Part shown: positions 3,097-11,556 of the stretch, in pieces
How the letters are laid out: each line of letters starts with the position of its first letter
How positions within the stretch are numbered: position 1 is the stretch's first letter
Source of the DNA: Nitrospira sp.
Lineage (GTDB): Bacteria > Nitrospirota > Nitrospiria > Nitrospirales > Nitrospiraceae
DNA length: 64,000 nucleotides
Reading direction: 5' to 3'
NCBI GenBank assembly: GCA_030123565.1
Contig: CP126122.1
Span: 2,742,800 to 2,806,799, forward strand
Position numbers and translations under genes: made by a program
The notes under the pieces: generated by a model
Told to the model about the DNA's origin: nothing
Databases searched by the model: none
Seen by the model: only the letters and a program-made list of their open reading frames with translations

Positions 3097-3105
3097 AACA
3101 AGAAG

Positions 3106-3196
3106 TTCTGAGTGCTGAATTCTGAGTTATGAATTAGAAATCGTAAACCTGAGAGGGCAATCTCAACACTCATAACTTAGAACTCAGAACTCGCAG
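3106..3196. repeat. Inverted repeat built of 7-bp units (amgK-murU gap)
   Basis: The left arm (3106-3133) reads as four heptads: ttctgag, tgctgaa, ttctgag, ttatgaa. The right arm (3162-3196) reads as five: ctcaaca, ctcataa, cttagaa, ctcagaa, ctcgcag, which are the complementary type. The arms can pair into a long imperfect hairpin around a 28-bp centre. It fills nearly all of the gap between amgK and murU. The same architecture with different units occurs at 9139-9235 and 10521-10601. Confidence 0.8.
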
Positions 3197-9131: not shown

Positions 9132-9138
9132 CAGGAAG

Positions 9139-9235
9139 GAATGAGGAATTTTGAATGAGGAATGCGATGACAGTTGTTTTGAATTGTCCCTCAGGTCGAT
9201 GCGTCCCTTCATTCCTCATTCCTCATTCCTCATTC
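9139..9235. repeat. Inverted repeat built of 7-bp units (GH57-galT gap)
   Basis: Left arm heptads at 9139-9166 are gaatgag, gaatttt, gaatgag, gaatgcg. Right arm heptads at 9208-9235 are ttcattc, ctcattc, ctcattc, ctcattc, the reverse-complement type. The centre is 41 bp. It ends eight bases before the galT ribosome binding site, so a hairpin here could affect readthrough or galT translation. Confidence 0.85.
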
Positions 9236-10254: not shown

Positions 10255-10321
10255 CCGTTCATCCGGCAGATCCGCCGCCATGCCGTTTGCAATCCGCCTG
10301 AGTCAGCCGTATCATCGCCGG

Positions 10322-10519
10322 ATGATCGTCCAACTCAGCCATCCCACGCGCCAGGTCGAAATCAAGGGCCCCAAACGCACCAAGGAGTTGTTGCGCGAAT
10401 TGAATCTGGTCGTCGAAGCGCATCTGGTGATTCGGGGCGACGAACTCGTTACGGAAGATGAAATGCTGGCTGACGCCGACCGGATCGAAATCCGGCCGGT
10501 CATTTCGGGAGGAGTATAG
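10322..10519 (+). CDS. ThiS/MoaD-like sulfur-carrier protein (probable TtuB role)
   Basis: This 65-residue beta-grasp protein begins MIVQLSHPTRQVEIKG and ends IEIRPVISGGV. The GG near the C-terminus is the adenylation and thiocarboxylation site of ubiquitin-like sulfur carriers, but here one Val follows it, so trimming would be needed before activation. ATG 10322 is chosen because the family fold starts there. An in-frame ATG at 10280 would add 14 residues; neither start has a strong ribosome binding site. The next gene is a TtuA-like tRNA 2-thiolation enzyme, so the protein probably donates sulfur to tRNA. MoaD or ThiS function is less likely because no moa or thi genes are adjacent. Confidence 0.8.
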   Translation: MIVQLSHPTRQVEIKGPKRTKELLRELNLVVEAHLVIRGDELVTEDEMLADADRIEIRPVISGGV

Positions 10520-10520
10520 C

Positions 10521-10601
10521 CATCAGCGATCAGCTCTCAGCCGAGGGATCGAAGTAACGCGATCGCTTCTGTCGCTGAAAGCTGACTGCTGAGCACTGAA
10601 A
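10521..10601. repeat. Inverted repeat built of 7-bp units (thiS-ttuA gap)
   Basis: The left arm (10521-10541) is catcagc, gatcagc, tctcagc, a NNNCAGC unit three times. The right arm (10574-10601) is gctgaaa, gctgact, gctgagc, actgaaa, a GCTGNNN-type unit four times. The 32-bp centre separates them. The unit is unlike those of the two other arrays, but the layout is the same. It fills most of the gap between the two genes. Confidence 0.85.
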
Positions 10602-10614
10602 GCTTGATGAATCC

Positions 10615-11556
10615 ATGAACTGCACCAAGTGTCCGACCAGTACCAAGGCCGTGATCGGCCTGCCCCGGCACAACGCGGCTTTCTGCAAAGATTGCTTCAC
10701 GACGTTCGTGCATGAGCAGGTGGCGCGCGCCATTAAGTCGCACAAGATGTTCACCCCAGAAGATCGCATCCTCGTGGCGGTCTCCGGCGGCAAGGACAGC
10801 CTGGCCCTCTGGCACATCCTGCTCAAACTCGGCTACCGCGCCGACGCGCTTTACGTGAACCTCGGCATCGGCGGCTACTCCGAAGAATCCCATCGAAAAG
10901 TTCAGCTCTATGCCGACACTGTCGCTGCCGCTCATGGCGCCACCCTGCTGGTCCATGTGGTCGAGCAGGAGGCCGGAGCAGGCATTCGCGAACTGGCCAC
11001 CATCCTTCACCGCCCGACCTGCTCGACTTGCGGGACCATCAAACGCTATCAATTCAACCGGGCAGCGGTGGAGCACGACTACGACGTGATGGCCACGGGC
11101 CACAACCTCGATGATGAAGCTGCACGCCTGTTGGGCAACGTGTTGCACTGGCAGGAGGAATACCTGGACAAGCAGGGTCCGGCGCTCCCCGCCTCCGTCG
11201 AGGGTTTCGCCAAGAAGGTGAAGCCGCTCTGTCGGCTGTCCGAACGGGAAATCGCCGCTTATGCGGTCCTCAATCGCATCGACTATATCGTAGAGGAATG
11301 TCCCATGGCGAAGGGCTCGAAGATGCTCCTGTACAAAGAGGTCCTCAATCGGCTGGAGACGGAATCGCCCGGCACGAAGCAGCGTTTCTACTGGGGGTTC
11401 CTGGACAAGCAAACCAAACCGGAGTCAGCGCCTGAATCCATGGCTGCAAAAGATCAACGGACCCTCCATCCCTGTCCTTCCTGCGGACAGCCCACCACCG
11501 CCGACACCTGTTCCTATTGCAAGATGATGGCAAAGGCCAAGACGGCGGCGCGCTAA
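10615..11556 (+). CDS. ttuA: TtuA-like tRNA 2-thiolation enzyme
   Basis: This 313-residue protein has the TtuA/Ncs6 layout. An N-terminal zinc finger uses C3, C6, C24 and C27. The PP-loop ATPase motif SGGKDS lies at residues 57-62. Three further cysteines, C136 and C139 (PTCSTCG) and C229 (EECPM), are spaced like the 4Fe-4S ligands of Thermus TtuA. A second zinc finger, CPSC...CSYC, closes the C-terminus. It should activate a tRNA uridine by adenylation and insert sulfur delivered by a ubiquitin-like carrier, which the preceding gene supplies. The exact modified base (U54 in TtuA, U34 in Ncs6) cannot be read from sequence. TtcA is less likely because it lacks these zinc fingers. Confidence 0.88.
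   Translation: MNCTKCPTSTKAVIGLPRHNAAFCKDCFTTFVHEQVARAIKSHKMFTPEDRILVAVSGGKDSLALWHILLKLGYRADALYVNLGIGGYSEESHRKVQLYADTVAAAHGATLLVHVVEQEAGAGIRELATILHRPTCSTCGTIKRYQFNRAAVEHDYDVMATGHNLDDEAARLLGNVLHWQEEYLDKQGPALPASVEGFAKKVKPLCRLSEREIAAYAVLNRIDYIVEECPMAKGSKMLLYKEVLNRLETESPGTKQRFYWGFLDKQTKPESAPESMAAKDQRTLHPCPSCGQPTTADTCSYCKMMAKAKTAAR

Follow-up and report, generated by a model that had tools for sequence, protein, structure and literature searches.

A heptad stem-loop between thiS- and ttuA-like genes of Nitrospira: probable ORF-less copy of a dispersed element associated with S23 proteins

The intervening sequence (IVS) in the 23S rRNA of Coxiella burnetii has inverted ends, is excised by RNase III and contains an S23 ORF preceded by tandem heptamers (GACAGAT) in variable number; in the part of that report available to us S23 proteins are stated to have no known function (PMC4990558). 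S23/IVP proteins are homologous to Avd of diversity-generating retroelements (PMC10053308, in the part available). In the accessible sections of the respective papers, three classes of paired 'global regulator binding sites' in Geobacter metallireducens (classes 1–3) were read as IHF/HU sites (PMC2700814), and omega dimers bind 7-bp WATCACW units in tandem, direct or inverted (PMC9499535). Heptamer arrays (PMC4679880), paired arrays (PMC2700814) and the occurrence of S23 in IVSs are already in print, as far as the available parts of these sources go. A paper joining the three was not found in the open-access literature. Within the same open-access literature, as far as its texts were available to us, only the Coxiella IVS heptamers came up as a report of S23 genes between inverted heptad arrays.

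Here we analyze a heptad hairpin of Nitrospira sp. The window, meaning the whole stretch of 64,000 nt under analysis, covers positions 2742800–2806799 of a 4.62-Mb single-contig genome, labelled G000. The hairpin at 10518–10604 fills the gap that separates a ThiS-like gene from a TtuA-like one (Table 1). Its left arm starts with AGC at 10518–10520, continues with TCAGC starting at 10523, 10530 and 10537, and runs into the 3' end of the thiS-like ORF, whose stop codon is at 10517–10519. In the right arm GCTGA starts at 10574, 10581 and 10588, followed by ACTGA at 10595 and GCT at 10602–10604. Terminal inverted repeats able to form a stem-loop were found here by repeat search and RNA folding alike. 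The heptad inverted repeat that the first-pass annotation had reported between these two genes at 10521–10601 is thus real, its ends being right to at most 3 bases each, and folding with flanks, the check proposed there, gave z scores of -2.88 (94 nt including the element) and -1.94 (150 nt).

Table 1. Positions of the hairpin parts, the flanking genes and two further heptad hairpins in the window
Feature	Position	Strand	Basis
ThiS-like ORF, before the element; possible inner start 10322	10280–10519	+	ORF list, PF02597
Left arm, AGC-CA-TCAGC-GA-TCAGC-TC-TCAGC	10518–10541	+	sequence, repeat search, pattern search
Loop, 32 nt, without ORF	10542–10573	no strand	sequence
Right arm, GCTGA-AA-GCTGA-CT-GCTGA-GC-ACTGA-AA-GCT	10574–10604	+	sequence, repeat search, pattern search
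TtuA-like PP-loop ORF, after the element	10615–11556	+	ORF list, PF22082, PF01171
Second heptad hairpin, unit GAATGAG / CATTCCT, gap between GH57 and GalT-like genes	9137–9235	no strand	array search, orthologous gaps
Third heptad hairpin, unit TTCTGAG / CTCAGAA	3105–3192	no strand	array search, orthologous gaps

The element is not an insertion in 23S rRNA, as it sits between protein genes. Since an S23/IVP ORF is absent from the 32-nt loop and no ORF of any kind occurs in the 23 readable thiS-ttuA gaps of the genus, we call it IVS-like and ORF-less and do not call it an IVS. Rfam gave no match at all (E up to 1), nor does the tRNA search explain the element. An intrinsic terminator was rejected for want of a T run, the right arm being followed by TGATGAATCCATG. 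Directly after ttuA lies a minus-strand ORF with a BACON_2 domain (PF19190, 11702–12268), a relative of which adjoins ttuA in other Nitrospira too.

The motif recurs within the window and throughout the genome. With up to 2 mismatches allowed, the window has five matches to TCAGCNNTCAGCNNTCAGC, against an expectation of 0.20 and with none of 100 shuffles giving as many. Genome-wide we counted 28 exact TCAGCNNTCAGCNNTCAGC triples, compared with 0 for the reversed control pattern, and 22 distinct places, after merging overlapping rows, where a hairpin has two or more exact units in either arm. When inverted arrays of any sequence were sought in 464 kb of the genome, eight had period 7, one had period 8 and none had period 5, 6, 9, 10 or 11. 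Three of the eight lie inside the window, each with a different unit (TTCTGAG, GAATGAG, TCAGCNN), and GTGAAAC is another unit from which the same architecture is built. Four TCAGC hairpins stand within 2.7 kb at C1:2028950–2031661 of this genome and seem to occupy one gap each in a short run of genes. The 6-Mb Nitrospirota genome G179 holds 505 TCAGC triples, yet only one strict hairpin, and its arrays seem to be organised differently.

In a phylum sample the TCAGC triple was present in 138 of 295 genomes. A collection with one genome per species contained at least 120 stretches with the strict hairpin pattern. The 80 matches listed come from more than a dozen phyla: Nitrospirota, Planctomycetota, Elusimicrobia, Acidobacteriota, Verrucomicrobia, Bacteroidota and Omnitrophota, as well as Armatimonadetes, Chloroflexi, Cyanobacteria, Gemmatimonadetes, Methylomirabilota, SAR324 and several proteobacterial groups. 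From 82 hairpins at the listed loci we derived the arm consensus AGC-NN-(TCAGC-NN)n. Arms mostly comprise four or five units, most commonly five including the outer AGC. Among 71 placed hairpins, which often fill gaps of 65–130 nt, 67 are outside ORFs (ORFs called by length only), and 50 of these 67 lie between co-directional genes compared with a background of 101/183 (p 0.006). Most sites are thus within likely operons. Diverging arm pairs were not seen among these loci, which had been picked by their arrays. Since TGA or TCA occurs in most units, we considered that they might supply stop codons in every frame, an idea given up because the order of the arms differs between unit types.

The fixed bases are constrained. 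Among the aligned species at the thiS-ttuA site, with G000 left out, difference rates were 0.146 for fixed bases, 0.342 for NN and 0.295 for the loop. Six other gaps, for which one species served to define the units and only the remaining species were compared, gave 0.20–0.23 for fixed bases, 0.45–0.55 for NN and 0.36–0.53 for other positions. Fixed bases thus change at roughly half the rate of variable and loop bases, pairwise difference counts being not independent and repeats possibly aligned out of register. The unit had been described in the first-pass annotation as four fixed and three variable bases, which is wrong, as the 82 hairpins show five fixed and two varying. Its further claim of preserved pairing between the arms holds for the fixed bases of these hairpins and not for the variable ones. 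NN agreed across arms in 25 of 240 cases versus 23.3 in shuffles (sd 4.5), and in the thiS-ttuA alignment of 8 species NN positions form standard pairs in 14–38% of cells; pairing of the variable bases is rejected on this count and this alignment. Covariation between the arms, the test proposed there, failed to appear in the same eight sequences, with 2 pairs changed on both sides versus 2.2 shuffled. Of the suspected selection on the hairpin or on a periodic binding site, constraint on a periodic motif is supported, the motif being kept and the pairing of the free bases not. In an unplanned test the second variable base paired less often than shuffled (54 vs 74, sd 6.8), a deficit that was weaker with shuffling within elements (62.5, sd 5.5).

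A constrained motif in contiguous heptads would also be expected of an operator- or partition-like DNA site unrelated to S23, on which a ribbon-helix-helix protein like omega of pSM19035 occupies adjacent units. In the accessible part of that work omega dimers need four contiguous 7-bp units for full activity (PMC9499535), which resembles the arms of mostly four or five units found here. Against such a site, the arms always converge and match across the loop, the hairpins are mostly found between co-directional genes in likely operons, and the repeat type tracks S23 clades (see below), so that we regard this explanation as rather improbable.

Orthologous gaps show turnover. At 24 thiS-ttuA loci of the genus, 23 of them readable, inspection by eye assigned a TCAGC hairpin to six, a decayed copy to three, a GAGTNNT-type hairpin to six and no array to seven. 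The sister genome G006, with a TtuA 98% identical, has a short TTCTGAA stretch (by eye), and G315 is one further TCAGC case beyond the 23. The loop sequence of G000 is common to the corresponding gap of G014, G012, G315 and G010 and partly to that of G024 and G008; G000 has one unit fewer than G014. Across relatives, the gaps at 3105 and 9137 contain TTCTGAG, GAATGAT, GTGAAAC, another unit or nothing, between flanks that are 70–95% identical. We looked in four relatives for the regions flanking 25 hairpins of G000. The gaps fetched (22 in G006, 19 in G014, 19 in G023, 17 in G008) contain TCAGC arrays, heptads of another kind or an unrelated element, inverted and some 130 bp long, or are empty.

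A MITE-like element of about 130–150 bp with inverted ends (GGATGCTCAAAATGG ... AAGGCCGCAGG ... GTACCC..GGGTACG ... CCATTTTCAGCATCC) shares intergenic gaps of Nitrospira with heptad and S23 elements (trxB-thiI gap, L407–L435; also L013, L015 and L027). At trxB-thiI it is present in 23 of 29 genus genomes in one or two copies (by eye).

A plain mRNA hairpin serving processing, stabilisation or decoupling, which arose locally by 7-nt slippage and template switching and has no dedicated protein, would account for the intercistronic position and the stable fold. It would also fit the missing unit relative to G014 and the likeness of neighbouring NN pairs, which were alike in 49 of 322 cases in the 82 hairpins versus 30 shuffled. 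Slippage would, however, not yield five fixed and two free bases, the TCAGC unit recurs in more than a dozen phyla among the matches listed, the thiS-ttuA gap is free of arrays in seven genus genomes, and the association with S23 described below is not accounted for. We therefore consider a plain mRNA hairpin unlikely.

All-against-all blastp of 534 ORFs near 80 named hairpin loci returned generic kinases, ABC transporters and similar, by which a common flanking gene or regulon was rejected, and one recurrent small family, the four-helix-bundle proteins S23/IVP (PF05635). An S23 ORF is located between TCAGC arrays at two loci (L174, L177) and just after the hairpin at a third (L125). PF05635 and TIGR02436 were confirmed for all three proteins, that of L125 also matching the bAvd and DivGenRetAVD models weakly, and solved structures exist for relatives (2GSC, 2RLD). 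In the phylum sample PF05635 matches occur in 180 of 295 genomes. Two things could not be seen from the first reading of the DNA: the probable nature of the repeat as stem of an S23-type element, and the construction of the same architecture from unrelated units.

S23 genes are enclosed by matching inverted arrays of 7- or 8-bp units, which vary from gene to gene (TCAGCNN, GTGAAAC, GTAACAA, GGCGAGT, AGTGAAT, GGGTCAA, ACAGAAC and others). Of 30 S23 loci fetched, 22 had full flanks, and 17 of these 22 reached a period-7 score of at least 1.45, compared with 0/27 ttuA loci, 0/22 flanks taken 900 nt away and 3/22 mismatched flanks; the arms of whole elements with different units hence match each other. 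For all usable S23 loci, several of which are the same gap in different species, 39/58 passed at period 7 and 51/58 at period 7 or 8, with thresholds chosen after the data had been seen and array type labelled partly by eye. Two of the 58, L125 (below threshold) and L177 (above it), had been included on account of their arrays, and without both the figure is 50/56. None of 489 control small ORFs (85–150 aa) of this genome passed at period 7. Eight S23 genes are on cyanobacterial and Azospirillum plasmids, six above the threshold and two at 1.42. Some plasmid S23 genes, annotated as four helix bundle proteins, lie between CRISPR genes, as cas6-S23-cas4 (L456, L462) and cas10-S23-cmr3 (L461).

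In the fold of a complete element from G021 the two arms pair with each other over the ORF (z -2.17). Of 29 genus genomes, five have S23 with GTGAAAC arms in the trxB-thiI gap, and the protein is under purifying selection (dN/dS 0.07–0.19 in the six pairs whose dS is not saturated). The same S23 gene occupies this gap in two further genera, where both arms consist of another unit, GTGAAAG (G235) or GTGAGGG (G163). Before a gene starting with MASRLYDW, G258 and G169, from two other genera, carry S23 with GTGAAAC-type arms. G000 has two regions corresponding to this gap: the more similar one (L023) reads ACGTAAGGCGTCAAGCGTGAGGGGTGAGGCG, 22 nt, CTTACGCTTCACGGCTCACGCCTAACG and has no ORF, and the other (L078) is short and without array. 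Gene-bearing and solo forms share this gap, a single case with an arm type other than TCAGC, and either form may have come first. In G000 itself the only S23 gene is flanked by GTGAAGC-like arms instead of TCAGC ones, and none with TCAGC arms was seen anywhere in the genus.

In a tree of 58 S23 proteins built on 106 columns, the ten proteins with TCAGC-type arms (eight TCAGC and two TTAGC, L125 and L449 being labelled by eye) form one branch with support 96/86. Its members come from Nitrospirota, Acidobacteriota, Bacteroidota and cyanobacterial plasmids. Repeat type clusters on the tree, with one change for the TCAGC type compared to a shuffled mean of 9.5 (0/300 shuffles as low); under a strict automatic TCAGC label covering six rows, three changes stand against 5.9 (0/300). 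Unit length clusters as well: 7 or 8 required five changes versus 10.1 (0/300), with 47 rows labelled and 11 not. Among pairs below 60% identity, protein identity and unit similarity were weakly rank-correlated (0.13; 33/2000 permutations as high).

At the level of genomes, PF05635 matched in 34 of 35 genomes with at least 20 TCAGC triples versus 146/260 others (p 4e-7), and the control family Y1_Tnp in 24/35 versus 185/260 (p 0.84), both p-values serving as a guide only, genomes being related. The genome of this array-rich set lacking a match is G284, with 30 triples; G010 carries the TCAGC hairpin at thiS-ttuA and likewise has no PF05635 match. Imperfect palindromes dispersed between genes in tens of copies are also typical of REP/REPIN-like repeats spread by a RAYT (Y1) transposase. 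Yet 11 of the 35 array-rich genomes are without Y1_Tnp, with no association overall, and no two hairpins within G000 or within G163 were seen by eye to have loop or NN in common. A REP/REPIN origin is accordingly very improbable, and copy-and-paste spread was rejected on the latter observation.

We conclude that 10518–10604 is probably an ORF-less ('solo') copy of a dispersed IVS-like stem-loop element. S23 proteins probably read the repeats of this element, any activity at the present site being our inference. Inverted tandem arrays of 7-bp units make up its arms, and the loop, which in complete relatives carries an S23/IVP gene, here has only 32 nt left. Counting against this reading are the GTGAAGC-like arms of the sole S23 gene in G000, the lack of an ORF in all readable thiS-ttuA gaps of the genus, the two genomes G010 and G284 with no PF05635 match, the single gap found to share solo and gene-bearing forms, and the weak rank correlation. 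The element would be transcribed together with thiS-ttuA, and the transcript may fold into a stem in which 5-bp blocks alternate with 2-nt internal loops. RNase III would probably cut this hairpin, as in rRNA IVSs, and an S23 pentamer may recognise (or copy) the units. Binding of the units by S23 is suggested by the enclosure of S23 genes in arrays, the gap shared by gene-bearing and solo forms and the match of protein clade to repeat type. The broader view seems to us evenly balanced between right and wrong: S23/IVP proteins could be readers (or writers) of tandem arrays, each clade with its own unit and length (7 or 8), within a large, pan-bacterial family of mobile stem-loops whose ORF-less copies fill intercistronic gaps and of which 23S rRNA IVSs would be a special case. 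S23/IVP genes are common in environmental bacteria, and matching arrays with a clade-linked unit point to the array as a testable substrate.

The following comparisons refer to the parts of the cited papers available to us. Like the Coxiella IVS (PMC4990558), the family described here combines a stem-loop with inverted ends, tandem heptamers and, where copies are complete, a loop that contains an S23/IVP ORF. Unlike it, the element is found in an intercistronic gap of protein genes and in many copies, has no ORF at 10518–10604 and bears heptads in both arms; excision by RNase III is a feature of the Coxiella IVS (PMC4990558) that for the present hairpin we only infer. TAACTGA arrays of Beggiatoaceae and cyanobacteria (PMC4679880) are likewise intergenic tandem heptamers in many copies, but there the repeats are direct and exact, with a single inverted case reported. 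The parS site of pSM19035 (PMC9499535) resembles our arrays in its contiguous 7-bp units with five fixed bases and in the need for about four such units, and differs in being confined to one plasmid, in its mixed orientations and in its ribbon-helix-helix protein. With Avd of diversity-generating retroelements (PMC10053308), the likeness consists in S23/Avd protein homology. The sites of G. metallireducens (PMC2700814) agree in being tandem 7- or 8-mers, paired on opposite strands at variable distance and dispersed between genes, and the class 3 motif MTYCTGA is close to the unit at 3105–3192; in contrast to the arrays here, no link to S23 is stated in the available part of that report. The broader view would unite degenerate heptamer hairpins such as these paired sites in one system, with a tie by homology to Avd.
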